From an uncultured Clostridium sp. (GTDB taxonomy: Bacteria; Bacillota; Clostridia; Lachnospirales; Lachnospiraceae), in the NCBI GenBank assembly GCA_946553025.1, contig CAMNRM010000034.1, forward strand, positions 1-54,255: 54,255 nucleotides of DNA, written 5' to 3'. This document shows, in pieces, positions 8,331 to 44,751 of the stretch. The notes under the pieces were generated by a model. It was not told the DNA's origin. It worked only from the letters and a program-made list of their open reading frames with translations, and made no database searches. Position 1 is the first letter of the stretch. Each line of letters opens with the position of its first letter. The position numbers and the translations under genes are program-made.

Positions 8331-11225
8331 TTAATCACCAATCGTAACATTTGAAGCTTCCAGTGCACCGGCATTTAAGATATCATCCAGGCTGGTATAG
8401 CCGTAGTAAAGCCGGTAGACATGTTTTGCCAGCATCGCCGCATTGGCAGAAGTATAACCGTAGGGAATATTTACGGTTACACAGATTTCCGGGCTGGCAA
8501 AGGGACCATAGGAGATAAAGAACGCATGGTTTCCTCTTACTTTTGATTCTTCTGCCGTACCGGTTTTTCCGGCGATCTCGATTTCAAGGTCGTTAAAAAT
8601 ACGGCTGTTGGTGATTACGTTTCTCATTCCCAGGGCTACAGCATCCCAGGTGGAATCCTGAATATTAATATGATCGCTGGCTTCCGGGGTAAAATCCCGA
8701 ACCAGGTTTCCGTCCGAATCGGTTTCCCGGTCAAGGAGGCTTAACTCAAACACGGTTCCCCGGTTGGCCAGTGCCGCCACATAGCGGGAAAGCTGTACAT
8801 TCGTATAGCTGTGGGTTCCCTGCCCCATCGCAGAACGCTCGGGGTCAATATCGGAAATCTCCGGGTCACGCTCGGAAATCTCCACACCGGAATCATGGTC
8901 AAGACCGAACATGGATGCATATTTTTTCAGGGCTTCCAGGCCCTTTCCGGTATTATACACCCCGTGTTCGTCCGTGGAAAGGCGATGGGCAACTTCCGAG
9001 AAATAGCAGTTGCAGGAGTTTTGAATACCTCCCACAATATCCAGTTCCCCGTGGTGTCCCGGACTGATCCAGCACCGGATAGGCTGTGCCACTTCCTCAT
9101 AAACTCCCGTACAGTTAATCTTTTCTTCCAGGCCAATCACGCCCTCTTCCAGCCCGGCAACCGCCGTAATCGGCTTAAATGTCGAACCGGGGGCCTTCTG
9201 TGCCTGTGTGGCATTATTGTACAGCGGCTGGGACAGGTCGTTTTGCAGCCGGGAAAAATAAGCGCTGTCCACCGTTCCCGACATCCGGTTATTATCGTAG
9301 CTTGGATAGGTAACCAGGGAAAGTACCTCTCCTGTCCGCACATTCGTGATAACACAGGAGCCGCTGCACGGATCTAAAGCAAGCTGTGCCGGCGTTATCT
9401 GAATCTTTGAAATCTTATCCAAAAGAAAGCTGTAAGCGTAGGCATCGCCGTTGCTGTGCAGGGCTGCAATCTGATCCGGTTCATTTTCCAAAACCCCCTG
9501 ATCGTACAGGGCAAGGCAGAGCTGACTTCCGGTCACGATATTATCATTAATCAAAAAGCGGTAAATTCTTTTGGTAAACCGGGCATCTTCCATAAGCTGT
9601 CCCAGGCAGTAATCCACAAGCTGCTGATAAATATCGTCAGCGCTGGAGTACTTATTATCTGCGTTTAACTTGGTTGTATCCACCCAGCTCTGTGCAATGC
9701 CGTCGTAGAGGTAATCGCGCAGGCTGATTTCATCGGCCTTCCATCCAAGGTAGGCTTCGCTGGTAATATCAATCTTGCTCTCATCGATAATGCCCACGGC
9801 AGAAGACGAAAGCCAGGTATAAATATAGACCATATAGTTGGCAAGATCCGGCGGCAGTTCCTGTATGGTTCTTGCCTGCGCACTCATCAGTTCCGCCCGA
9901 AGCTGTGCCATAATCCGTTCCCTGGAAGTTTCAAATGTACTTTGAATCTGCCGTTCCATCGCTGAGGCATCCTCTGCCTCAAAATGACTCAGAGAAAGGA
10001 CATTATTATTAATCAGCTGATAATAGGCATCCTTAATCGGAATTTTTAATTTACTGGAAGGCGTTCGTTCCGTATTTGGTTCATCTTCGGGAACCAGCCG
10101 GTCTACCAAAATTCCCGCAAGCTGCCGTTCAATCAGATGATAAATCCCTTTCTGCAGATCCGCATCAATTGTAAGATACAGGTCATTCCCCGCCTGGGCC
10201 TTGACCGTTTCCTTCACTTCCCGTATCCTTCCCCGGTTATCCACGTTGACGATCTGATAGCCGCGTTCTCCGTGAAGCGCCGTTTCCATCGTCGATTCAA
10301 TGCCAATCAGACCTACGGTGTCATTAATATCGTATTCCGGGTTTTCCTTCTGCAATTCTTCCAGTCTTTCCTTCTGCATCTTACCCGTGTAGCCGATAAT
10401 CGGAGCAAAATAAATACTGTCGTTGTAAACCCTTACGGAGGATTCTTCGATATTCACACCTAAAAGATAGGGCGTATTTTCCAGCACCTCGGCAACCGTT
10501 TCTTCATCCACCTGTGAGGCAACCACCGTGGACTGGTATCTCTGAAAAGAAACAAGGGACATGGTGTAGCGGATATTCATCAGCTTTAAGGCCGTTTTAT
10601 CATCCAGCATTACCGTATTACCCTTTTCGTCCTTTATCTCGTCCAGCTTGTAACCGTCTTTCCCTTTCCATCGGTTAAAAAGTTCTCTGGCGGTCACATT
10701 TACCGGAAGTTTTCCCACGATTTTATCGAATTTATCTTCTTCACTAAGTTCCTCGATGTACTTGCACCCGTAGATATCCCTGAGAAATCCCAGACGCCCT
10801 GTTTCCGTGGAGGATGTATAATAAAATTCCCCAAACTCATCCAGGCCAACTTCAAATTTCCCCTCGATCGCCACATTGTGTTTATCCAAAATATTCACCA
10901 GGCGCAAAAGCATCGCATTAAGATCCGCTGCTTCCCGATAATCGCCGGTATCCTGTACGGTAACGGAATAGGCCAGCTCATTATAAGCCAGAAGCTTTCC
11001 GTTTTTATCGTAAATATTCCCCCGTGTACCGGGTGTGTACATGGTTTTCTCGGTCTGTTGAATATATTTATTCAGCATATCCTCCCCACGGACAATCTGC
11101 AGCTTAAAAAGATGGGCAGCTAAAACCCCAAACATGCAGGTAAAAAGCACCGTTAAGGCGAATAGTCTGGAATAAGCAATTTTCTGGATAAAATCCTTCA
11201 GTATTTCCCATAAATCTCTGAACAA
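8331..11225 (-). CDS. mrdA: Penicillin-binding protein 2 (class B transpeptidase, elongation), unusually long
   Basis: It cross-links peptidoglycan in partnership with RodA. At 964 residues it is roughly 250-300 longer than typical PBP2. It has one N-terminal membrane anchor (about 18-40), then the pedestal region with GTRGNIYDKNGKLLAYN. The transpeptidase carries APGSTFKP (catalytic serine near residue 680), NSCNCYF (SxN motif near 737) and AGKTGTAE (near 886). The extra length is a helical, charged stretch at about residues 385-620 between pedestal and catalytic domain, with no motif I recognise. It lies 27 bases before minC and about 70 bases after mreD. Confidence 0.92.
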   Translation of the reverse strand: MFRDLWEILKDFIQKIAYSRLFALTVLFTCMFGVLAAHLFKLQIVRGEDMLNKYIQQTEKTMYTPGTRGNIYDKNGKLLAYNELAYSVTVQDTGDYREAADLNAMLLRLVNILDKHNVAIEGKFEVGLDEFGEFYYTSSTETGRLGFLRDIYGCKYIEELSEEDKFDKIVGKLPVNVTARELFNRWKGKDGYKLDEIKDEKGNTVMLDDKTALKLMNIRYTMSLVSFQRYQSTVVASQVDEETVAEVLENTPYLLGVNIEESSVRVYNDSIYFAPIIGYTGKMQKERLEELQKENPEYDINDTVGLIGIESTMETALHGERGYQIVNVDNRGRIREVKETVKAQAGNDLYLTIDADLQKGIYHLIERQLAGILVDRLVPEDEPNTERTPSSKLKIPIKDAYYQLINNNVLSLSHFEAEDASAMERQIQSTFETSRERIMAQLRAELMSAQARTIQELPPDLANYMVYIYTWLSSSAVGIIDESKIDITSEAYLGWKADEISLRDYLYDGIAQSWVDTTKLNADNKYSSADDIYQQLVDYCLGQLMEDARFTKRIYRFLINDNIVTGSQLCLALYDQGVLENEPDQIAALHSNGDAYAYSFLLDKISKIQITPAQLALDPCSGSCVITNVRTGEVLSLVTYPSYDNNRMSGTVDSAYFSRLQNDLSQPLYNNATQAQKAPGSTFKPITAVAGLEEGVIGLEEKINCTGVYEEVAQPIRCWISPGHHGELDIVGGIQNSCNCYFSEVAHRLSTDEHGVYNTGKGLEALKKYASMFGLDHDSGVEISERDPEISDIDPERSAMGQGTHSYTNVQLSRYVAALANRGTVFELSLLDRETDSDGNLVRDFTPEASDHINIQDSTWDAVALGMRNVITNSRIFNDLEIEIAGKTGTAEESKVRGNHAFFISYGPFASPEICVTVNIPYGYTSANAAMLAKHVYRLYYGYTSLDDILNAGALEASNVTIGD

Positions 11226-11294
11226 TGTTTACTTCTCTCCTCTTTCTGTCACGCCTGGTCAGAGGGACTACCCTGACAGGTAAAACCATGCCTT

Positions 11295-11813
11295 TCAGAC
11301 AATTTTGGTATCTCTGCGCTTGTCAAGCTCCTCCAGCTTCCGGCTGATAAATAAAAACAAACGGTAAATAAACAGGGTCGTTACCAGGCTGAAGATAATC
11401 TCCGGCAGCATAATCTTCCGGAAATAATAAAACAAATTCAGCTTTCCGCGGATTAAAAAACGGAATACATACATATACATGTTATACATCAGTTCATTGG
11501 CAATGCACAAAAACAGGGGCAGGGTAATGTATTCTTCATAATAATATTTGGTAAAGATCCCGTTAATATACCCGATGTAGATAAAAACCAGCATATAAAA
11601 GCCAAACGGCCCGCTGTAAAATAAGTCCAGCAAAAGCCCCGCAAACAGCCCGTACAGAATTCCCGCCCAGCTTCCATGGATAAATCCAAAGGAAAACGTC
11701 AAAATCAGCAGAAGATTCGGCGAAGCGGCCAGAAAAGGAATCATGGGAAAGACACAGGTCTGTATGGTAAAAGCTAAAACCATCAAAAGCAGATTAAGAA
11801 TAATCCTTTTCAT
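11295..11813 (-). CDS. mreD: Rod-shape determining membrane protein MreD
   Basis: A polytopic membrane protein of the elongasome. The 172 residues are nearly all hydrophobic, with five or six membrane segments and the family-typical FGFIHGSWAGILYGLFAGLL stretch. A basic cytoplasmic tail ends it. The start overlaps the mreC stop by four bases, which supports both the start and co-expression. It links mreC to PBP2. Confidence 0.88.
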   Translation of the reverse strand: MKRIILNLLLMVLAFTIQTCVFPMIPFLAASPNLLLILTFSFGFIHGSWAGILYGLFAGLLLDLFYSGPFGFYMLVFIYIGYINGIFTKYYYEEYITLPLFLCIANELMYNMYMYVFRFLIRGKLNLFYYFRKIMLPEIIFSLVTTLFIYRLFLFISRKLEELDKRRDTKIV

Positions 11814-12676
11814 GAACCGGCCCCCTCTCCCGCTTTTGCCTCCTCATCTCCGGTACTCTTCGTCCCGATAATAATCAAAACTTCCTGGAGATTGTCAAAA
11901 TTCGCCACAGGAATCAGATAACCGGATTTGGTCAGCCGCTCCGGGTCCATGGTCACATCGGCAGCATAGCCGATTAAGATCCCGGGAAGAAATTTTGAAC
12001 TGATATTGGAAGTAATAATCTGATCTCCCTCTTTGACGTCGCCGTTTTTGGTAATATTGGTAATCCGCAGTCTTCCCTCTTCAAATAAGGTCAAATCCCC
12101 CGCCACAATGCACCGATCGCCCGACTGCATCGCCATGGCGCTGACACGGCTGGAATCATCGATAATCGATCGAACCGTCGCATAATTTGCCCCCACATCG
12201 GTGACGATTCCCACAAGCCCGCCGCCGGCAATAACATTATTATCCACTTCCACACCGTCCGCGGAGCCTTTATTCACCCGAAAAACCTGAAACCAGTCCC
12301 CGGAGTCCTTTGCGATAATCCTTGCGCCGATTTTATCGTACTGCATATAAGTCTGGTCTAGCTGGTAGAGTTCACGCAGGCGGTTAAGTTCAAACTGGCC
12401 GGACTGAAGCCGGTTATTCTCTTCAATCAGCCCAGCCACCTCTTCCTTTAAGCGCTCATTCTCTGCCAGTGCTGTCTTTAAGTGGGTATAATCCCTGTAC
12501 TCCGTATAGATTCCGTTTCCCAGTGCATTTACACCGGTCTGAAGCGGGACAAGCACGTAACCGACCCCTGTTCGCAGAGGTTCGAGTATGCCGTCTTTAA
12601 ACGAAGTAACTATAATCAGCACGAAACAAAAAATGGTAAGGCCAATCAGAAGATATTTGCTGCGTTTCGTTTTCAT
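11810..12676 (-). CDS. mreC: Rod-shape determining protein MreC
   Basis: An extracytoplasmic scaffold that interacts with PBP2. The 288 residues contain an N-terminal membrane segment (about 9-26), a coiled coil (about 68-95, LAENERLKEEVAGLIEENNR) and the beta-rich MreC domain with NKGSADGVEVDNNVIAGGGL and VSAMAMQSGDRCIVAGD. radC lies 30 bases upstream, leaving no room for mreB between them. Confidence 0.92.
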   Translation of the reverse strand: MKTKRSKYLLIGLTIFCFVLIIVTSFKDGILEPLRTGVGYVLVPLQTGVNALGNGIYTEYRDYTHLKTALAENERLKEEVAGLIEENNRLQSGQFELNRLRELYQLDQTYMQYDKIGARIIAKDSGDWFQVFRVNKGSADGVEVDNNVIAGGGLVGIVTDVGANYATVRSIIDDSSRVSAMAMQSGDRCIVAGDLTLFEEGRLRITNITKNGDVKEGDQIITSNISSKFLPGILIGYAADVTMDPERLTKSGYLIPVANFDNLQEVLIIIGTKSTGDEEAKAGEGAGS

Positions 12677-12706
12677 TCCCTATGTTCCTCATTCTATAAA
12701 TTATGG

Positions 12707-13408
12707 TTATAACATTCCCTCATTCAGTAGGCTGATATATCTAGTATCGCCAATAATAATATGATCTAACAGTGAAATTCCCAGAACCTCCCCCGCAGCC
12801 TTCACCCGAAGGGTCAGCATCTTATCCTCTTTGCTGGGAGAAGGGTCCCCGCTTGGATGGTTGTGAACCAACACCAGGGAAACGCAGCCGCACTGCATCG
12901 CCTGTTTAAAAATCTCCCTGGGAGAAATCACCGCGGAATTAATCGTCCCCGTGCTCAGCACCACATCCCGAAGAAGCTTCTGCTTGGTATCAAAGTAAAG
13001 TCCCCGAACCTGTTCCTGCTCCAAATGGCGCATATCCTCCATACAGTAGGCAGCAATATCCGCCGGGTCCTGAAAGGCTTTCTGCCTTAATCCGGCAAAC
13101 TTTCCCTTCTTCCAGATCCTCCGGGACAGTTCCCCGATACAGAGCATCTGAACCGTCTTAACCTTGCCGATCCCCTCATAGCCTAAAAGTTCATCCCGGG
13201 TAAGGTGCAGAAGCCTTAAAAGTCCTCCTTCCGGGGAATTTAAGGCAAGGATCTCCGACGCCAGTTCCAGTGCATTGGCGTTTCTTGAACCGGTTCGGAT
13301 AATCACCGCCAGAAGCTGCGCATCGGTAAGCTTCTCCGCTCCTTCCGTTATGCAGAGCTCATAGGGGCGTTCCTGCAGGGGCAGATCTTTCATCGTATTT
13401 TTTTCCAT
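12707..13408 (-). CDS. radC: RadC family JAB-domain protein
   Basis: A 233-residue protein with an N-terminal helix-hairpin-helix region (LLGYEGIGKVKTVQML, about 70-85) and a C-terminal JAMM/MPN domain whose zinc-binding motif reads LVHNHPSGDPSPSKED near residue 180. The biochemical role of RadC is not settled; an older role in recombination repair has been questioned. The frame opens at 13498, but AAGGAGG lies before the ATG at 13408. radC heads the mre gene order in many Clostridia. Confidence 0.93.
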   Translation of the reverse strand: MEKNTMKDLPLQERPYELCITEGAEKLTDAQLLAVIIRTGSRNANALELASEILALNSPEGGLLRLLHLTRDELLGYEGIGKVKTVQMLCIGELSRRIWKKGKFAGLRQKAFQDPADIAAYCMEDMRHLEQEQVRGLYFDTKQKLLRDVVLSTGTINSAVISPREIFKQAMQCGCVSLVLVHNHPSGDPSPSKEDKMLTLRVKAAGEVLGISLLDHIIIGDTRYISLLNEGML

Positions 13409-13557
13409 CTTATCCTCCTTTATGGGCTTTTCCCTCTCCAAGTACGAATCCCGGGAAGATAATCCGGCCTGGGTTCTATCTGTCGCTGTTCCCGTCAAAT
13501 ATACCCTGATTTTATTCTAACATAAGTTTTATTTTCTGTACATGTTTTTCAAAATTT

Positions 13558-14862
13558 TTATAAACTTTTTAGCAGATTTTCCGCCGAAATAATCCCTTTT
13601 TCTGTCAATTTCTGCAAAGTTGTAATAATTCCCAGTTTTGCATGATACCAGGTCAGTCCGCCCTGGAAATAAACGGCATAGGGCGGCTTAATCGGGGCAT
13701 CGGCACTCAGTTCGATGGAAGCGCCCTGGACAAAAGCGCCCGCCGCCATAATCACCGGCGCATCATAACCGGGCATGTCCCAGGGTTCAGGGGTAACAAA
13801 GCTGTCCACCGGAGCCGCCGCCTGGATTCCCTCACAGAAAGCAATAACCCCTTCCGGCGTTCCAAAGGTAATCGCCTGGATAATGTCGTGGCGCTCCTCT
13901 TTCCCATTCGGCACCACCAAAAAACCTAAACGCTCATAGATATTGGCAGCAAAAACAGCACCCTTTAAGGCTCCAGCAACCACCGTAGGCGCTAAGAACA
14001 GCCCCTGGTAAAAGGAGGTATTCAGCCCCAGGCTTGCCCCCACCTCACGGCCAAGCCCCGGGGCGCTTAGACGGTAAGCCGCCCGCTCGATACATTCCTT
14101 TTTTCCCACAATATAGCCGCCGATGGGTGCCAGACCGCCTCCCGGATTCTTAATCAGGGAGCCGACCGCCATATCGGCCCCCACATCCGTAGGCTCTATG
14201 GTTTCTACAAACTCGCCGTAACAATTATCCACCATGCAGATAACCTCCGGCTTGATTTTCTTAATAAAATGGATTAATTCACCGATTTGGTCCACGGATA
14301 ATGTAGGACGGGTCGCATAGCCCTTGGAACGCTGAATCGTAACCAGCTTTGTCTTCGCATTCAATGCCTGCGCAATGCCGGGGTAGTCAAAACTCCCGTC
14401 GGCAAGCAGATCCACCTGGCGGTAGGTCACGCCGTACTCCTTTAAAGAACCCACAGACTCCCGGATTCCGATAACCTCCTCGAGCGTATCGTAAGGCTTT
14501 CCCACCGGAGAAAGCAGTTCATCCCCCGGGCGGAGGTTGGCAGAAAGCGCAATATGGAGGGCATGGGTGCCGCTGATTAAGTTTGGACGGACTAACGCCG
14601 CTTCCGTGTGGAAAATCGAGGCATAGACATCCTCTAACGTATCCCTGCCCAAATCATTATAACCGTAACCGGTGGTTGCCGCAAAATGAATATCGCTGAC
14701 CCGGTTATCCTGCATTGCCTTAATGACTTTTAACTGATTGCTTTCCGCCCGCTGGTCAATCCGGGCAAAACGTTCGGACAAATCGGCTTCTATATGCAGA
14801 CAGAAATCCAAAACTTCTTTTTGAATTCCCATCTCTTGGTATAATTTCCTGGTTTCCGTCAT
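13558..14862 (-). CDS. PLP-dependent enzyme of the methionine gamma-lyase / aluminium-resistance (YnbB) family
   Basis: This 434-residue fold-type I PLP protein is related to cystathionine lyases. Visible motifs are ATTGYGYNDLGRDTLE near the N-terminus, LISGTHALHIALSANLRPGD, VTIQRSKGYATRP, CMVDNCYGEFVE (the aspartate that contacts PLP) and SLIKNPGGGLAPIGGYI, whose lysine (near 236) probably forms the internal aldimine. Members have been annotated as aluminium resistance proteins and as carbon-sulfur lyases; the substrate is unknown here. The frame opens at 14958, but the ATG at 14862 has an AGGA site and matches the family start (MTETRKLYQEMG). It is not tightly linked to neighbours. Confidence 0.8.
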   Translation of the reverse strand: MTETRKLYQEMGIQKEVLDFCLHIEADLSERFARIDQRAESNQLKVIKAMQDNRVSDIHFAATTGYGYNDLGRDTLEDVYASIFHTEAALVRPNLISGTHALHIALSANLRPGDELLSPVGKPYDTLEEVIGIRESVGSLKEYGVTYRQVDLLADGSFDYPGIAQALNAKTKLVTIQRSKGYATRPTLSVDQIGELIHFIKKIKPEVICMVDNCYGEFVETIEPTDVGADMAVGSLIKNPGGGLAPIGGYIVGKKECIERAAYRLSAPGLGREVGASLGLNTSFYQGLFLAPTVVAGALKGAVFAANIYERLGFLVVPNGKEERHDIIQAITFGTPEGVIAFCEGIQAAAPVDSFVTPEPWDMPGYDAPVIMAAGAFVQGASIELSADAPIKPPYAVYFQGGLTWYHAKLGIITTLQKLTEKGIISAENLLKSL

Positions 14863-14979
14863 TATTTTCCTATCCTTTTCTTTTTGTTCCGGGAAAAATA
14901 AACTTGTTATTTTTTCCATTTTCTTTTCTATTTTGCATACTTTCCCCGGGATTGTCAATTTCTTTTCATTAAGTAATTC

Positions 14980-16584
14980 TTATTTTTTTGTTACAACGCC
15001 GCTGTGCGCATTCCATGATTTTTGCCGAAAACAGGAAATTAAATCGCTGACGGTCGCATTTTGGGCAGCGCTGGTATGCATCCCCATCCTGGCGGCAGCC
15101 TGCCGGGTTTTTTCTCCGATACAGACCGCATAAAGCCTTTCATAAGGGTAATCGCAGCCAAGCATCCGGCCAAAGCCCTCTACGGTGGAACTGCTGGTAA
15201 AGACGACCTTTGGCAGACGTTCATCCTGCTCTACCTTCATCAGGGACTGCATAAGGGCGGTGTTTTCCAGTGCGGATTTTGTCGTATAAACCGCCAGATC
15301 CGTAAAGGACAGCCCGGGATTTTTCTTTAATTCCTGCAAAAGTTCCTCACTCCCTATCGCCGATCGGGCAAGCAAAAGCCTTGTCCCTGCCGTAAGCTTT
15401 TGGGCAAGCAGACGCCCAAGGGAAATGCTGTCATACTGCTCTGGCATATAGTCGGCACGGATTCCTTTTTTCAGGAGTGCATCGGCCGTTCCCTGTCCGA
15501 TTACGGCAAATTTCATATGCGCCGCGGCCCGGACATCCCTTCCGCTTTTTAAAAGCTGCGAAAAAAAACATTCCACCCCGTAAGGCGAGGTAAAAACAAG
15601 AACCTGATACGTATTTAACCGGGCAAGTTCTGTTTCCACCAAAAGGCGCAGGGCTTTATCTTCTACGGGAACGGTTTCTATCGCAGGTACGGACCATACC
15701 TCTGCGCCCAGTGCCCTTAACCCCTCCTGCAATTCTTCCCCGCGTTCTAACGGACGTGTCACCAGGATTTTTTCTCCGGCTAACGGCAGCTTTTCATACC
15801 AGCTTAAGGTTTCATGCAGCCTGCAGACCTCCCCCACGACAATCACGGACGGGGGCTTAATCTTCTCCTTTTTTGCCTTTGCTGCCAGATCGGCAACCGT
15901 TGCCACCACCTTTTTCTGTCCTGCCGTCGTTCCCTGCTGCAAGATAGCGGCCGGCATGTCCTTATCGATACCGGCAAGGCAAAGACCTTCCATAAGTTCC
16001 TCTAACGCATGTACCCCCATAAGAAAGACCAGGGTTCCCCCTGCCTGCACCAGCGCCTTATAGGGAACTAAGCGGCTGTCTTTCTCATCCTTACATTCCT
16101 TTCCATGCCCGGTAAAGATATGAACGCCGGACACATAATCCCTGTGCGTCACCGGAATTCCCTGGTAGGCAGGAACGGCAAGCGCAGAGGAAATCCCGGG
16201 GACAATCTCAAAAGCTATCCCTTCCTTTTCCAGAACCTCTGCCTCTTCCCCTCCCCGCCCAAATAAAAACGGGTCGCCGCCTTTCAGCCGCACCACCCTT
16301 TTTCCAAGCCTTGCCTCACGAACCAAAATCCCATTAATCTCTTCCTGGGGAATGCTGTGATGCCCGGTAACTTTACCGACATGGATAAGCTTGCGTCCGG
16401 GCGGAATCTGACTTAATACCTCCTCCCCCACCAGCCGATCATAGACGATACAGTCGCAGTCCTTTAAAAGCCGCCGGGCCTTCACCGTTAAAAGATCCGC
16501 TGCCCCGGGCCCCGCTCCCACCAGCCAGACCTTTCCCGGACACTGTTTTTTCTGTTCTTTATGTTGAGTTCTGCTTTCTTCCAT
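14980..16584 (-). CDS. cobA-hemD: Bifunctional uroporphyrinogen-III C-methyltransferase / uroporphyrinogen-III synthase
   Basis: The HemD half closes hydroxymethylbilane to uroporphyrinogen III and the CobA half methylates it twice with S-adenosylmethionine to precorrin-2, the branch toward siroheme and corrinoids. The 534 residues begin with the methyltransferase (about 17-255: VWLVGAGPGAADLLTVKA, VRLKGGDPFLFGRGGEEAEV and a GTLVFLMGV segment). A HemD-type domain follows (about 270-525: ILVTRPLERGEELQEGL, VFTSPYGVECFF, VVFTSSSTVEGF). The fusion order is standard for Clostridia. It follows hemC by about 90 bases. Confidence 0.94.
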   Translation of the reverse strand: MEESRTQHKEQKKQCPGKVWLVGAGPGAADLLTVKARRLLKDCDCIVYDRLVGEEVLSQIPPGRKLIHVGKVTGHHSIPQEEINGILVREARLGKRVVRLKGGDPFLFGRGGEEAEVLEKEGIAFEIVPGISSALAVPAYQGIPVTHRDYVSGVHIFTGHGKECKDEKDSRLVPYKALVQAGGTLVFLMGVHALEELMEGLCLAGIDKDMPAAILQQGTTAGQKKVVATVADLAAKAKKEKIKPPSVIVVGEVCRLHETLSWYEKLPLAGEKILVTRPLERGEELQEGLRALGAEVWSVPAIETVPVEDKALRLLVETELARLNTYQVLVFTSPYGVECFFSQLLKSGRDVRAAAHMKFAVIGQGTADALLKKGIRADYMPEQYDSISLGRLLAQKLTAGTRLLLARSAIGSEELLQELKKNPGLSFTDLAVYTTKSALENTALMQSLMKVEQDERLPKVVFTSSSTVEGFGRMLGCDYPYERLYAVCIGEKTRQAAARMGMHTSAAQNATVSDLISCFRQKSWNAHSGVVTKK

Positions 16585-39069: not shown

Positions 39070-40128
39070 TTATACTCCAAAATACTCCTTTACAATCCCG
39101 TCAAGCTGTGCCCTAATCACCCGAAAATCCGCAGATAAATCCAGTGTTTTTGCGCCAATCTTATTCCCGTCGATGGTAAATGCACAGTCCGGGGTAATGG
39201 CCTCGTCGGTTTTGGCATAGAGCAGCAGCCCGGCTACCTTACCGCTGTGTTCCTTATCCTGGTTCTTTACATAGGCAAAAATCTGGTACAGATTCGCGGA
39301 ATGCAGAGTCTGCTTATCAAAATAGTTCTGCAAGGTTCTCCCATAATATTTCGCGTCGATAATCAGGATTTTTTCTCCCAGACGCAGAAAAATATCCGAC
39401 TGCATCGCCGGAAGAAAGGAAAGGGACGCCGGGTCTTGCTTTCCGGTTAAGTTCCAGGTAATCCGGGCGGATTTTATCTCGGTAAGATAGCCATGGTGCT
39501 GCCGGTAATATTCCAGAATAAACCGCTCATACAGCCTTGCCATGTGCTCATCGGAAAACGCCGCCATCTTATAATTCCCGTCCTCCGTCGTCTGAAGCAT
39601 CCCTTCCAGGACAAAAAAGCAGAGATTTAAAAGCATCTCATAGTTTTTATTCCCTCTCTGATAATACAGCCGCCCCCAGGGAATAGCCAAAGGATTTAAA
39701 AGGCTGACCCCGTCAAAAAACAGTCCCAGCTTCTGCAATGCCTTCTTCCGCCGTTCGTCCACCCCGGGATCACGAAGCAGATAATATATGGTTGTCTTTA
39801 AGATTTGATTGTAATCGTTGTCTTCTGTCAGTTCATCAAAAACACAGGCGAGTTTCTGTTTTCTCAACACCTGGTGATGAAACGTTTTCGGCAAATCCAG
39901 CTTTCCCCGCATTACCGTAAGATCTTCCCTTTGCTCACGATACTCCCGGTAAAGCCCCTGCTTTATCTGCCGGGCAATTCCCCTGGCAAGGATGGCGGCA
40001 AATAAATCCTGCACCTGTTTAAACTCTTCCGCCGCCACCTCTTCCATATCCGTCTGTTTCAATACCTGAAAGGCATAGGAAAGCATATAATAAATATTTT
40101 TGATATAAATCCCCTGTCTATTCGTCAT
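39070..40128 (-). CDS. mcrC: McrC-like subunit of a type IV (modified-DNA) restriction system
   Basis: 352 residues. McrC partners the GTPase McrB and provides DNA cleavage. The N-terminal part (KNIYYMLSYAFQVL) is typical of the family; a PD-(D/E)XK nuclease core lies C-terminally, with Asp in QSDIFLRLG and the D-A-K triad in ILIIDAKYYGRTL. The ATG at 40128 is preferred over TTG at 40131; it overlaps the mcrB stop by 11 bases. With mcrB it forms a complete two-gene McrBC system. Confidence 0.9.
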   Translation of the reverse strand: MTNRQGIYIKNIYYMLSYAFQVLKQTDMEEVAAEEFKQVQDLFAAILARGIARQIKQGLYREYREQREDLTVMRGKLDLPKTFHHQVLRKQKLACVFDELTEDNDYNQILKTTIYYLLRDPGVDERRKKALQKLGLFFDGVSLLNPLAIPWGRLYYQRGNKNYEMLLNLCFFVLEGMLQTTEDGNYKMAAFSDEHMARLYERFILEYYRQHHGYLTEIKSARITWNLTGKQDPASLSFLPAMQSDIFLRLGEKILIIDAKYYGRTLQNYFDKQTLHSANLYQIFAYVKNQDKEHSGKVAGLLLYAKTDEAITPDCAFTIDGNKIGAKTLDLSADFRVIRAQLDGIVKEYFGV

Positions 40129-42613
40129 CAAACACCCCGCGCAGCTTCTTTTCCCAGTTTTTTAATTTTTCCGGCTCGTCAAACCAGTATTCCGCCAGGG
40201 TTGGAAGAAGATCAAAGGCAACCACGGCACGCATCCAGTCCTCAGTGCACTCCCCTGCCTTTCTCCCGCAGAAATAGCTGTGACCGATGCAAAAACCACG
40301 GCCCAGAGAGTTATCCCGGGCAATCTCTTTATTCAGTGCCTTTACCTGGTCAATTAAGGCGTCAAAGGTTTCATTGGCAAATCCTTTCTGATACTGCAAA
40401 AAACCATCCGAAGTAAACCCCGGTTCCAGTTCAAAAAAACCAAACCGCCTGCGCAGGGCATAGTCAATCATGGCAAGACTGCGGTCGGCTGTGTTCATCA
40501 TACCGATAATGTAGAGGTTCTCCGGGACAAAGAAGGGCTGTCCGCTGTAGGCTAACGTCATCTTGCTCCCCCGGTAATCCTTTTCCATAAGCATCAGAAG
40601 TTCTCCGAAAATCTTACTTAAATTTCCCCGGTTAATTTCATCAATTAGGAAGAAATACGGCTTGTCCGGATAAGCTGCCGCCTTTTGACAGAAGCGGTAA
40701 AAAATCCCCTCCGTCAGCTTAAATTCCGCCCCGTCCGGCCGATAGCCCATAACAAAATCCTCATAGGAATAGTTTTGATGAAACTGCACCATCTCTACCC
40801 GGTCATCGTCCTGCTCTCCCATCATCACATAGGCAAGCTTTTTTGCGGTAAAGGTCTTCCCAACCCCCGGCGCTCCCTGAAGGATGATATTCTTTTTATT
40901 CCAGAGAAGGGCTTCTAAAACCTCCAGGCGCTCTTTGGTCATAAAGACGGTGCGCAGAAAATCTTCCTTGCTGTACTTGGGAATTCTTACCCCGGGATCT
41001 CTTTGTCCGTCTGCATTAAGCCACCAGTAGCCGTGCCCAAAAGCCTCCCTGCTAAACAGTTCTCCCAGGCTCATCTGAAAATAAGGCGATAAAATCAGTT
41101 CCTCAAACAGAGGTTCATCGCTCTTATCCACCTTGATGCAGGTAGAATTTTCATTCGGCGTCCACCATTTCTTCGTCCCGGTATAGGCAGCCTGGGATTT
41201 TGCCCGGGCAATCAGCCGGTACTCCCGCTCATACCAGCCTCCCTGCAGTTCCGGATTCGGAAGGGCTTTATCGCCGGTAAACTGCCCTAAAAGCTGAACA
41301 TGCTTTCCATAGCAGAGATAAAAATAATCGCCCCGGTGAATGGCATCCATAAATGCCTGTCCCTGCGTCGTCCTGGAAACCGCCTTGGCCTTGGTCGCAC
41401 TGTGCACAACCACGACGCTGCGGTTTTCAAAGATGATTTTCTTTGCATCCGAAATCCCTGTATTTTCCGTGCCGTGGCTGATTTTCCAGATGGCGGGCGT
41501 GCGGTCCACATACAGCAAAACATCCGACAAATCCGTCTGCTCTAACGCCTCCAAAAGTTCCGGGCGAAGCCTCCAGGTAAAGCTTCCCTCACCCGGACTC
41601 TCCGTCGTTTTGCCAAGGTAGAGAATGGGCCACCATTTGACGGTTTTAGGGTTTTTTGTACTGTCCGTCGCCAGCGGACACTTGGTCTTTTCCGCTACCC
41701 TGCGGGCTAAGGAAGAAGAACCGCTGTTGTAAAAATTGCTGCTCTCACCGTACTGGAGAGAAAGCTGCTTGCAGGTCGCCTGCCCGCCGTAGTCCTTTAT
41801 CCTCTTCATAATCTGGAGAGCATTGGGCGTAAATACCGATGCATCCTGTAAAAGCTCCATCCAGTCCGAAACCGTAAGTTCTGGGGAATAATCCGTGGGA
41901 AACCATCCTTCCTCCCGGGGTTTTTCTTGCTCCTCCTGATAAAAGCGGCTTAAATAAAAGCCAAAATCCATCGTCAGCGTTTTCCGTTTGGGGTCAGGGT
42001 AGCAGGATTTATCTAAAGCGGCATCAAACAGAGAAGCAAGTTCACTGTCCCCGCAAAGCGCCGCGCAAAGTTCATCGTACATCCGATATCCGGCAAGCAT
42101 ACTTTCCGCCAGCCCGTCCCGCCGGGGCACATCATCAGCTTCCAGCGCCAGGGCAACCTCCCGGAAAATCTCATATTTATAGATATAATACTTGTCCGGG
42201 TAGCGCAGCCAGAGATAGGTGCTGATAGCATTGGTATTCTGATAATGGCTTCTCCAGGTGCCGTCATCGTGCTTCACCCGCAGAACTTCCGCCGCATTCT
42301 GAAACGCCTCCACGCGCTCGCTAAGGTCGCTTCCCTCATAAAAAAGGTCGGAAAACATCTGCCGGACGTATTCATCGTCAGCCTTGGCAAAATGAAGGAT
42401 CATGGTTCGGGGATAAGCATAGCCGGAAGCCAAAAGGTTAAAGGTCTTACCTGTCGCCTGCTTAAACATCTCGCCGAAATTTTCGGCATCCATATCCCAG
42501 TGTTTTTGAAAATGCAAAACCGCTTCCCATTTATACTTTTCATCCTCCCAATGCTTTGGAAAATAATCTTTATATCCCGTAAGCACCGACTGTAATTTTT
42601 CCAGATTAATCAT
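40118..42613 (-). CDS. mcrB: McrB-like AAA+ NTPase with extended N-terminal region
   Basis: 831 residues. The C-terminal AAA+ domain (from about 555) contains LQGAPGVGKTFTAKKLA (Walker A), FFLIDEINRGNLSKIFGELL (Walker B) and the McrB signature MNTADRSLAMIDYALRRRFG. The N-terminal half is unusual: residues about 1-220 form an aromatic-rich domain, followed by a central stretch, then a segment near 410-500 (FYLCYGKHVQLLGQFTG, GWYEREYRLIA) that resembles EVE/PUA-like modified-base readers. The N-terminus probably chooses the target. No ribosome site was tested closely for the ATG at 42613. Confidence 0.85.
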   Translation of the reverse strand: MINLEKLQSVLTGYKDYFPKHWEDEKYKWEAVLHFQKHWDMDAENFGEMFKQATGKTFNLLASGYAYPRTMILHFAKADDEYVRQMFSDLFYEGSDLSERVEAFQNAAEVLRVKHDDGTWRSHYQNTNAISTYLWLRYPDKYYIYKYEIFREVALALEADDVPRRDGLAESMLAGYRMYDELCAALCGDSELASLFDAALDKSCYPDPKRKTLTMDFGFYLSRFYQEEQEKPREEGWFPTDYSPELTVSDWMELLQDASVFTPNALQIMKRIKDYGGQATCKQLSLQYGESSNFYNSGSSSLARRVAEKTKCPLATDSTKNPKTVKWWPILYLGKTTESPGEGSFTWRLRPELLEALEQTDLSDVLLYVDRTPAIWKISHGTENTGISDAKKIIFENRSVVVVHSATKAKAVSRTTQGQAFMDAIHRGDYFYLCYGKHVQLLGQFTGDKALPNPELQGGWYEREYRLIARAKSQAAYTGTKKWWTPNENSTCIKVDKSDEPLFEELILSPYFQMSLGELFSREAFGHGYWWLNADGQRDPGVRIPKYSKEDFLRTVFMTKERLEVLEALLWNKKNIILQGAPGVGKTFTAKKLAYVMMGEQDDDRVEMVQFHQNYSYEDFVMGYRPDGAEFKLTEGIFYRFCQKAAAYPDKPYFFLIDEINRGNLSKIFGELLMLMEKDYRGSKMTLAYSGQPFFVPENLYIIGMMNTADRSLAMIDYALRRRFGFFELEPGFTSDGFLQYQKGFANETFDALIDQVKALNKEIARDNSLGRGFCIGHSYFCGRKAGECTEDWMRAVVAFDLLPTLAEYWFDEPEKLKNWEKKLRGVFDDE

Positions 42614-42673: not shown

Positions 42674-43420
42674 TTAAATCAATTTTTTAATCTGTTCAAC
42701 ATATACCTTCACTTCTTTCCCACCAGATAGTTTATCCCTTTCTAATGCCTTAGAAAAATTATTGATATCACGAATAATCGATTGCTTATCATAGATATAG
42801 AAAATCAACTTTGAACATCTATAGAAAAAGGCATCTTCTCCCAATTCACGAAATAATTTATTTTCTGTATGATCTGCTCTTGTACATTTAAGTTCTATAA
42901 TCGTATCTTCCTCTTTTATCCAAATATCGCACCGGTCTGCCCCATATCCAATATCCTGGTATACTTCTCTTCGGGCAGAAGGATAGAGTGTTTTAATTAC
43001 TGCATACATTATATGCTGCAAATCATACTCATTGCAAATAACTATTTGTCTTAAACTTTCTTTTTTAAGTGTGGCTTTATTTCCTGGTAATTCAAAAAAC
43101 ATATTTTGCAGATATAATCCAAAGTTTTTAATCACTATTTCCAGAATATCGTCATGATATTTTTTACATTCTGGTTCTTTTTGTAAAGATATAATAGTTT
43201 TCTTTATGCAATAGCGGTATTTTTTTAACGTTTCTTCTGTTGACTCAAAAGGTGTATGAACAGCATAAAGCAACATTTTATATTGTTCTGTATGCAGATG
43301 GTTTTCGGAAACATAATGCAAAACTTCTGTTTTCCAATTTTCATAATTTTGGCAGAAATCTGAAAACTCGGAAATTTTTTCCAACTCCGCCCCGTTTTTT
43401 ATTAATTCCTCTTTATTCAT
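42674..43420 (-). CDS. PD-(D/E)XK nuclease, DpnII/MboI-like domain; partner of the upstream ATPase
   Basis: 248 residues, AT-rich coding. The N-terminal half is helical and charged with no motif I know. The C-terminal half has the nuclease core: Asp165 in ADRCDIWIK, Glu176 and Lys178 in TIIELKCTRAD, then ELGEDAFFYR (Glu195) and KLIFYIYDKQ. The order strand-D-strand-ExK, then E...D and an FxYD strand, is like the REase domain of DpnII/MboI-type proteins. It overlaps the ATPase gene upstream by 8 bases. Alternative: a nuclease with no defence role, which the neighbourhood makes less likely. Confidence 0.68.
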   Translation of the reverse strand: MNKEELIKNGAELEKISEFSDFCQNYENWKTEVLHYVSENHLHTEQYKMLLYAVHTPFESTEETLKKYRYCIKKTIISLQKEPECKKYHDDILEIVIKNFGLYLQNMFFELPGNKATLKKESLRQIVICNEYDLQHIMYAVIKTLYPSARREVYQDIGYGADRCDIWIKEEDTIIELKCTRADHTENKLFRELGEDAFFYRCSKLIFYIYDKQSIIRDINNFSKALERDKLSGGKEVKVYVEQIKKLI

Positions 43421-44615
43421 CTCTTCTCCATCTTAAATAAAATAAAAATAATGGTTCTTTAAATGTCAGCACCCTTTCCTTCCAGTCAAATACCCGTTCA
43501 GCCTCATACCCACTTTCTTCCAGAATAGAAAACATCGTATCTATCGTCTTTTCTATGGTTTGCATAGTTAGTTTATGCACCGTCTTTGCTTCATCTAAAA
43601 GTTTCCTTGCCCTTTCATAGATTTCGATAACAGTTATTGACTTTAATGGAGGATCTTTTCTTAATGTTTCCAGTACAAGCCCATAGCGATCTACCGATAA
43701 ACCATCCTTCAGATAATAAACGGCTCTTTTTTGCCCGCGGGAAGGCGGACCTGACAGAAGCTTTGCAAATAATTCCTGATAGGGAAGAAAATCTGCTTTT
43801 AAATAACAGCTTTTTGCAATATCTTCTTCTCTTAACTGCCTGTCTTCTGCAATATAATAACCAATATTTTCACAAATGGACTGCATCGTTTGCGGAGAAT
43901 TAATACACTCAACAACTAATCGGTTAATTAATGTTTCATTGGCAGATATTCCGAGTTTAAGAAAACCTTTTTTGGGAATTTCTGCCAGTTCTTCATCTTT
44001 CCACGGCTTCATCGTTATATTCATAATTCTCCCCTGCAAATCCGGATTGTTTTTTACCGTTTCATCTACCCGGTGCGGAAGCGATACAATAATTGCTTTT
44101 AAATCATAACGAATCGCCTCTTTCAACTGACAGGCTGCATCGTGCTGCATTCGTTCACTTGCATAGTGAAAGTCATCCAATAAAAGAACTTTTTTATTTT
44201 CTATAAAATAACGCATTACCCGTTCTTTATTGGTTTGGTACTGTGAAGTATATTTTGTTCCCGCCTGCTCTCCCTGACTATAGACTGCACTTTCATTTTG
44301 TACTTCACCACGCAGGGGAATATCTACTTTCTTTGCGACTACTGTCCAAAAATCATTCTCACCTTTAAAATCATTTCCTGTCATGGATACAAGTTTATCT
44401 CTTCCAATAGTTGCTTCGCATAAAACTGTCTTTCCAATTTTTGATGGGCCATCAATCACCGTTAAATATCCCATCTGTTTCAATGCCATAGCTAATCTTT
44501 CCTCATAAGTAAAATCACCGGAACTTTTTCTGTTGACATAAGTATATGACGGAAAAGTTGCCGAGGAAAAAACAGAACTGAAATTATAATCCATATTCAT
44601 ATTTTCTGTTGCCAT
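43413..44615 (-). CDS. P-loop ATPase, partner of the nuclease (candidate defence protein)
   Basis: 400 residues. It has a Walker A (GPSKIGKT, residues 56-63) and Walker B (VLLLDDFHY, 143-151), then DLKAIIVSLPHRVDETVKN and a helical region from about 210 (PWKDEELAEIPKKGFLKLG, NSPQTMQSICENIGYYI), as in ORC/STAND-like AAA+ ATPases. The tail (residues 300-400) resembles a winged-helix segment. The GGGAGG site precedes the ATG. It is AT-rich compared with mcrB and mcrC. I do not recognise a named defence system for this pair. Confidence 0.65.
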   Translation of the reverse strand: MATENMNMDYNFSSVFSSATFPSYTYVNRKSSGDFTYEERLAMALKQMGYLTVIDGPSKIGKTVLCEATIGRDKLVSMTGNDFKGENDFWTVVAKKVDIPLRGEVQNESAVYSQGEQAGTKYTSQYQTNKERVMRYFIENKKVLLLDDFHYASERMQHDAACQLKEAIRYDLKAIIVSLPHRVDETVKNNPDLQGRIMNITMKPWKDEELAEIPKKGFLKLGISANETLINRLVVECINSPQTMQSICENIGYYIAEDRQLREEDIAKSCYLKADFLPYQELFAKLLSGPPSRGQKRAVYYLKDGLSVDRYGLVLETLRKDPPLKSITVIEIYERARKLLDEAKTVHKLTMQTIEKTIDTMFSILEESGYEAERVFDWKERVLTFKEPLFLFYLRWRRDE

Positions 44616-44655: not shown

Positions 44656-44689
44656 ATTATAGCATAAAATATACCTTTAATATACCTTT
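44656..44689 (-). promoter_or_regulatory. Promoter with tandem repeats before the ATPase-nuclease module
   Basis: Minus-strand -10 box TATAAT at 44661-44656. The -35 zone is replaced by two copies of ATATACCTTT (44669-44678 and 44680-44689) spaced 11 bases, one helical turn. This looks like an operator for a DNA-binding protein. The transcript would begin about 40 bases before the ATPase ATG. Confidence 0.5.
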
Positions 44690-44725: not shown

Positions 44726-44751
44726 ACCGGCAGACATCAACATCTGCCGGT
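44726..44751 (-). terminator. Terminator of the lacZ-symporter-permease operon
   Basis: ACCGGCAGA (44726-44734) and TCTGCCGGT (44743-44751) form a perfect 9-base-pair stem, with TTTTTA following on the minus strand. It lies 25 bases after the purine permease stop and separates that operon from the defence genes. Confidence 0.9.

Follow-up and report, generated by a model that had tools for sequence, protein, structure and literature searches.

A P-loop ATPase and a DpnII/MboI-fold nuclease form a co-inherited gene pair with a probable role in defence

The 54,255-nucleotide stretch analysed here, hereafter the window, is positions 1 to 54,255 of contig CAMNRM010000034.1 (assembly GCA_946553025.1) from an uncultured Clostridium sp. 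of the Lachnospiraceae. On its minus strand two overlapping genes encode a P-loop ATPase of 400 aa (43413..44615) and a PD-(D/E)XK nuclease of the DpnII-MboI fold of 248 aa (42674..43420). That the two genes are a real, co-inherited two-gene module is well supported by their adjacency, the co-variation of their products, the clustering of the ATPases in a tree and the retention of catalytic residues. We consider it fairly probable that the pair is a DNase-effector defence system in which an ATPase sensor is joined to a DNase, a pairing that would be new. Our best guess is a small, unnamed system through which the cell destroys itself when a virus or other DNA invades.

Results

Conservation of the gene pair

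Homologues were gathered by searching with the ATPase alone. The search yielded 21 full-length ATPases of the clade, namely that of the window and those of loci L008-L016, L058-L063, L072, L079, L084, L119 and L120. Before counting we removed L001, which is the window itself, and L002 and L071, which cover the locus of L009. Outside the 21 stand ATPases that are broken or partial, namely L064, L065 (G397 contig 28), the plasmid fragments L075 and L082, and a 36-residue match in G316. An earlier note on this DNA had called for a count of adjacency, and nuclease sequence was found directly 3' of the ATPase gene in 21 of 21 cases, intact in 17 and disrupted in four (L010, L015, L063 and L120). 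Pairwise distances were then compared over 15 intact pairs, a set without the four disrupted loci, without L119, which was found later, and without L084, whose ATPase is identical to that of L079 and which counts among the 21 as a second record. The distances between ATPases and those between nucleases were closely correlated (r=0.96, n=15, permutation p=2e-4), and the lowest identities among the intact pairs were 33% for the ATPase and 25% for the nuclease. A single branch in the tree of 32 ATPase rows separates the 21 with a paired nuclease from the 11 lone rows; the support for this branch, 94/96, is just under the starring threshold of the tool. The genome from which the window comes has a further, divergent pair (G000 contig C61:8076-9994; L016), whose ATPase is 38% identical to that of the window and which sits in another context.

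Plasmids of Selenomonas, Niallia and Actinomycetota carry lone ATPases, and neither these nor two Paenibacillus plasmid fragments had a nuclease match in the fetched stretches. The partnership is tight inside one clade, and each component has relatives elsewhere. The two-gene unit proposed in the earlier note is well supported by the adjacency, the correlated distances, the tree and the conserved residues described below, and the anti-phage role proposed with it is plausible.

Relationship of the nuclease to EcbAgaN

The nuclease, which has a helical N-terminal region, matches PF18742 (DpnII-MboI) at E 3.1e-29, its score of 101.9 bits being above the cut-off of 27. In PADLOC it matches, at 1e-12, the models called Aga_Helical-REase. 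The catalytic residues read by the earlier note, D165, E176 and K178, are invariant in eight aligned nucleases and occur in all 15 intact pairs compared, in agreement with its assignment to the PD-(D/E)XK class. When a profile of the eight nucleases was compared with the PDB, the one match below E 0.1 was EcbAgaN (23wq; E 4e-12), and D165, E176 and K178, counted along the printed alignment, align with D298, E309 and K311 of that protein. The passages of PMC10620215 available to us describe EcbAgaN as a DNase that depends on Mn and attacks both ssDNA and dsDNA non-specifically, and report that alanine at D298/E309/K311 abolishes DNA cleavage. The same passages relate that, once the Argonaute partner is triggered, EcbAgaN degrades genomic DNA and the cell dies, and that either protein alone has little effect. 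By sequence comparison, then, the nuclease domain shares its ancestry with a DNase whose role in defence has been established by experiment. Because D165, E176 and K178 fall on the catalytic residues of EcbAgaN, an ATPase sensor acting with a DNase effector appears the likeliest arrangement. A fold comparison of the nuclease was not used; it gave mostly helical matches across the N-terminal 89 residues.

The retention of these residues also bears on whether the pair is a decaying, horizontally acquired cassette without a current function, in whose promoters the phased A/T elements (see below) are only UP-element-like or curved DNA. The AT-rich composition and the disruption of the nuclease in four of 21 loci would fit such decay, but catalytic and Walker residues persist in all of the intact pairs compared, down to the low identities given above, and the two proteins co-vary. 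We therefore regard decay as highly improbable.

Features of the ATPase

The Walker A motif GPSKIGKT (residues 56-63) and the Walker B motif VLLLDDFHY are both present in the ATPase, as the earlier note had claimed. GPSK-GKT and DD are invariant across the aligned ATPases, and Walker GKT and DD are found in each of the 15 intact pairs. The Pfam families expected in the earlier note were found for the nuclease only; the ATPase gave nothing but sub-threshold AAA models, the best being AAA_22 (E 1.5e-4, 22.5 bits, cut-off 27). The PADLOC profile PDC-S59, a model with no stated cut-off, matched the window ATPase at E 1.7e-18 in two stretches, the best of which covers 124-261 of 428; the profile also matched the paralogue in the same genome (1.6e-20) and an ATPase of the lone plasmid type from G458 (1.3e-10). 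Compared with the PDB by sequence, the ATPase gave chance-level matches only (best E 0.14, RuvB). The AlphaFold model is of moderate quality (pLDDT 65.8, pTM 0.40), with the P-loop residues 56-60 below 50 and residues 281-390 at pLDDT 74-93 by blocks of ten. The C-terminal order of helices and strands in the model reads as a winged helix, and we describe the protein as an AAA+/STAND-like NTPase domain followed by a winged-helix-like domain. Among the highest Foldseek ranks for the model were Cdc6/Orc1, PABY2304, SSO1545 and RuvB, and a maltose-system regulator entry was also among the matches; with TM about 0.25, these comparisons support only the general ATPase class.

Such neighbours would suit a non-defence role in DNA processing, in which a DNA-bound, Cdc6/RuvB-like AAA+ protein and a nuclease would act in repair, recombination or mobile-element maintenance, and lone plasmid relatives of the ATPase do lie near partition and umuDC genes. 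The distribution of the pair is very patchy, however, its composition is AT-rich at unrelated sites, and its nuclease is homologous to a proven defence effector, all of which make DNA processing quite unlikely.

Distribution and genomic context

The pair is rare and patchy in bacteria. Counting its own genome, the ATPase was found in 5 of 61 relatives, in 12 of 397 family genomes (a count that takes in partial and weak matches; nine genomes exceed 470 bits) and in 3 of 291 class genomes. The nuclease was found in 12 of 397 family genomes and in 1 of 299 phylum genomes, which is its own genome, and the PDC-S59 profile matched in 4 of 299 phylum genomes and 0 of 14 control genomes. The Clostridioides phage CP067352 (113 kb) carries an intact pair, as does an IMG/VR contig with the same ATPase, and the pair is also found on the record of a large plasmid from Paenibacillus. 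Each of the two window proteins matches phage protein families that lack an assigned function. Scans for viral relatives with single proteins found none, and both scans with alignments found one contig.

The flanks of pair loci were judged by eye. At L013, L015 and L061, which come from two genera, the pair lies 3' of an spmA-like gene, perhaps a recurrent insertion site, and at L119:170-3948 (G759) an intact pair is flanked by transposase-like ORFs. In L064 (G305; 9324-15121) the broken pair-type ATPase lies directly after jetC-jetD (Wadjet) and before an OLD-like ATPase gene. Nuclease genes that lack the ATPase have other neighbours: L054 adjoins a PDC-S02/YhcG gene, L055 has a type IV restriction helicase on one side and a PDC-S50 gene on the other, L057 adjoins an ArdC/YodL mobile-element gene, and L083, on a Klebsiella plasmid record, adjoins AbiEii/AbiEi genes. 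At L056:3968-8053 (G094) such a DpnII-MboI nuclease gene begins 12 bp past a type IIG restriction-modification gene, so that here the effector fold has another kind of partner. The lone plasmid ATPases L073, L077 and L081 are near methyltransferase or restriction genes. Around the window's own pair, the upstream permease is present in 6 of 10 same-genus genomes; besides it, these genomes gave a single 100-bp match to the last 24 kb of the window, and since only this one stretch matched beyond the permease, an empty site could not be read. Matches to the downstream flanking gene (DUF362-like by eye) were all at or below 51% identity.

Disrupted nuclease genes

Three of the four disrupted nuclease genes carry deletions. 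L010:11172-11657 lacks about residues 101-168, L015:10085-10321 is 437 bp shorter than its near copy L013, the loss running from codon 74 to about 219, and L063:9853-10203 lacks roughly residues 114-206 in L013 numbering. Each deletion removes the region of the catalytic aspartate and leaves the ATPase in front intact, and the deletions look separate because each locus has a close tree relative with an intact nuclease. The nuclease of L120 has a frame break. No intact nuclease was seen behind a broken ATPase among the pair loci; for the broken ATPases outside the 21, no nuclease was found at L065 and one 31-residue match (E 0.005) at L064. Repeated loss of the nuclease with the ATPase kept is consistent with an effector that burdens its carrier but does not prove such a cost, since several of the loci come from draft assemblies.

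This asymmetry would also fit an addiction system resembling toxin-antitoxin pairs, in which the ATPase would be the antidote to a toxic nuclease and selection would act for the upkeep of the carrier DNA (phage, plasmid or island) rather than for defence; the presence of the pair on a phage and on a large plasmid points the same way. Full-length nucleases, however, occur in G142 and G063, genomes without a match to the ATPase profile, the majority of pair loci are outside phage and plasmid records, and the lone ATPases described above have no nuclease match in the stretches fetched. Taking these observations together, we consider an addiction system unlikely.

Gene layout and the McrBC neighbours

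The ATPase and nuclease genes overlap by 8 bp (43413..43420, minus strand), and an identical overlap is present in 8 of 15 intact pairs. At 0.344 (34.4%), the GC content of the pair is well below the 0.478 (47.8%) of the rest of the window. A TATAAT sequence, the likely -10 element, lies at 44656..44661 on the minus strand, 46 bp 5' of the ATPase start codon; it was identified by direct reading and is outside the computed sigma-70 pairs. Just upstream of it is a perfect tandem 11-bp repeat, two copies of AAAGGTATATT on the minus strand (44668..44689). A terminator-like hairpin with a T run (44726..44751, minus strand) would part the upstream permease gene from the pair, and it is weak evidence because the one hairpin found near the pair compares with 1.0 expected in shuffles. 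The overlapping genes, the AT-richness, the repeat-bearing promoter and the position directly upstream of McrBC are thus all as the earlier note had stated.

The McrBC genes follow on the same strand. The gene for the McrB-like AAA_5 protein (40118..42613, minus strand) begins 60 bp past the nuclease stop, and that for McrC is at 39070..40131 (minus strand). The McrB-like protein matches AAA_5 at E 1.3e-24 and the NCBIfam McrB model with 310.9 bits, below the cut-off of 637; McrC matches PF10117 at E 8.3e-38 and the NCBIfam McrC model with 378 bits, above the cut-off of 338. A scan covering the four contiguous genes found neither a cognate methyltransferase nor an Argonaute domain among them. 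The earlier note had thought a four-gene composite possible, in which the pair would be an accessory of McrBC as a modification-dependent restriction system. The short gap, the shared strand and the failure to find a terminator-like site in the gap between the pair and mcrB speak for such a composite. McrB and McrC were nevertheless found in 0 of 20 other pair loci, nor were they found in L064 (tblastn of the window proteins, fetched stretches of 8-21 kb), and McrC was found in 0 of 10 same-genus genomes although one of these, G008, carries a close homologue of the pair. The GC content of the pair also differs from that of mcrBC. The composite is not supported by this comparison of loci and same-genus genomes and is very unlikely; we treat both genes as neighbours that are not a conserved part of the pair system.

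Phased arrays in the pair promoters

An unexpected finding was that, in many members from Clostridia, TWAAA elements recur upstream of the pair at steps of about 10, 20 and 30 bp. The arrays lie in the 150 bp 5' of the ATPase genes, upstream of the -10 box, at L014, L016, L059-L063 and others. The periodicity statistics were devised after the arrays had been seen, and only L119 and L120 were examined afterwards. In pooled self-matching of 14 promoters, values at lags 10, 20 and 29-31 were 0.41, 0.39 and 0.38, with troughs of 0.28 and 0.29 at lags 15 and 25, and controls were flat near 0.31. The 14 pair promoters exceeded 83 AT-rich control upstream regions (Mann-Whitney p 2e-6), a value that is optimistic because the pair promoters are partly related. 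Against dinucleotide shuffles, 13 of 18 pair promoters and 12 of 112 controls were periodic at p<=0.05, and 11 of 18 and 3 of 112 at p<=0.01. L008, with a short upstream region, L015, a near copy of L013, and L064 are outside both tests, and L079 and L072 are additionally outside the self-matching test. Within its own 8-20 kb, the promoter was the most 10-bp-periodic stretch at 8 of 15 Lachnospiraceae pair loci. As for the loci found later, L120 was periodic (p 0.007) and L119 weakly so (p 0.033). A promoter motif, GGTRW, was tried before settling on periodicity tests and was rejected, having reached p<=0.05 in only 3 of 21 loci.

The array of the window itself is short and consists of the two perfect 11-bp units with degenerate neighbours. 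Over 150 bp the window promoter was not significant in the shuffle test (p 0.11), it was near the control mean in self-matching, and 34 better periodic stretches were found elsewhere in the window; it was significant solely as a local lag-11 stretch (p 0.005). No standout array was detected in the promoters of the lone-ATPase plasmid loci or of the one Paenibacillus pair in the within-locus periodicity ranking. The Clostridioides phage promoter reached p 0.01 in the shuffle test but failed the local-stretch test and the within-locus ranking. The control that ranked highest in self-matching, which was also one of the three controls at p<=0.01 in the shuffle test, lies upstream of L066. This locus (L066:9139-10257; G012) encodes a distant lone ATPase relative without a nuclease and has a striking 10-bp array of AAGAATAAAAGTGAATAAA-type units; by eye, the ATPase gene is near an AAA_14/DUF4143-like gene.

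STAND ATPases of the MalT type and initiator ATPases of the Orc1/Cdc6 type assemble on direct-repeat DNA sites. The arrays may be bound by the ATPase through its winged helix or by some other regulator, or they may be curved or UP-element DNA, and the data do not favour one reading over the others. One could envisage that the ATPase assembles on the TWAAA array of its own promoter and so links the sensing of infection to release of transcription and activation of the nuclease, a scheme that we regard as doubtful. A limited literature search found no immune design with an array-tethered ATPase sensor and a DNase effector.

Discussion

By analogy with the Argonaute system, the ATPase, with its AAA+/STAND-like core and predicted winged helix, would take the place of Argonaute as sensor and regulator, and the nuclease would be the DNase effector, held low or off before the ATPase acts. 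A trigger, either invading DNA or phage, would cause the ATPase to assemble with the nuclease or to release it. The nuclease, once active, would degrade DNA with little discrimination, and immunity of the abortive-infection type would result. Nuclease activity, the hold of the ATPase over it, the trigger and any protection from phages or plasmids are inferred. In favour of the proposal we count the co-inheritance of the pair, the homology to EcbAgaN, the PDC-S59 match, the defence and restriction genes near broken, lone or pair-less relatives, the presence of the pair on a phage, its patchy spread and the repeated nuclease losses.

Several observations weigh against this proposal. A search of the 397 family genomes with a nuclease profile returned 15 rows for 14 nuclease genes, a single broken gene accounting for two rows; ten genes adjoin an ATPase, but four, in G142, G063, G094 and G256, do not. 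The structure model of the nuclease was unusable (pLDDT 51.9), and because the structure models are weak, the AAA+/STAND assignment depends on motifs and low-TM matches. No recognised sensor domain was found in the ATPase. Finally, at the loci listed, many intact pairs stand alone, by eye, among metabolic or housekeeping-like ORFs. The earlier note had suggested looking for defence genes in the flanks, and the outcome was divided: the window pair lies beside McrBC, but this was the only known defence system seen beside an intact pair, and PADLOC gave no matches for the pair neighbours scanned in L059 and L072.

If the proposed defence function is correct, the nuclease domain that serves as the killing arm of Argonaute immunity would also be driven by an unrelated ATPase, so that one effector would have been swapped between different sensors. 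The PADLOC PDC-S59 ATPases would gain a partner, and with it a function that can be tested. How a costly nuclease module stays silent in gut Clostridia would be a further question, raised by the phased arrays in the promoters.

The earlier note could not match the pair to a named system, and the libraries searched likewise give no system name, only PDC-S59 for the ATPase and DpnII-MboI or Aga_Helical-REase for the nuclease. To our knowledge, PDC-S59, which the window ATPase matches in parts, is an uncharacterised single-gene candidate, and we know of no nuclease partner or mechanism for it. The abbreviation PDC stands for 'phage defence candidate' in the available passages of PMC11514479, and the name PDC-S59 was not found in the literature searched. 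No publication on the pair was found by title and abstract opening in a search whose coverage excluded most subscription papers and bioRxiv preprints, and the passages of PMC7159879 and PMC11090510 at hand make no mention of DpnII.

Among known systems, type II restriction enzymes such as DpnII and MboI share the fold family PF18742 with the window nuclease, but the window pair has an ATPase partner and no methyltransferase among the four contiguous genes. The MalT-type STAND regulators and the Orc1/Cdc6-type initiators also combine a P-loop domain with a winged helix, a plan that the window ATPase appears to share; this likeness is one of low-TM structural models only, and the window ATPase is paired with a nuclease. 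DUF4297-HerA, as presented in PMC11291478, is likewise a two-gene combination of ATPase and nuclease that cuts dsDNA and confers phage resistance, but the window proteins have no HerA or DUF4297 Pfam match at E up to 1. The closest comparison is with EcbAgaN, which at 390 aa is longer than the window nuclease and matches it only in the C-terminal domain (259-368). In the accessible part of PMC10620215, the EcbAgaN/EcBPAN system (a long-B prokaryotic Argonaute with a PD-(D/E)XK DNase) has the homologous nuclease domain with the same D...E-x-K spacing and, like the window pair, a two-gene layout of sensor and nuclease; the partner of EcbAgaN, however, is an RNA-guided Argonaute, whereas that of the window nuclease is a P-loop ATPase.

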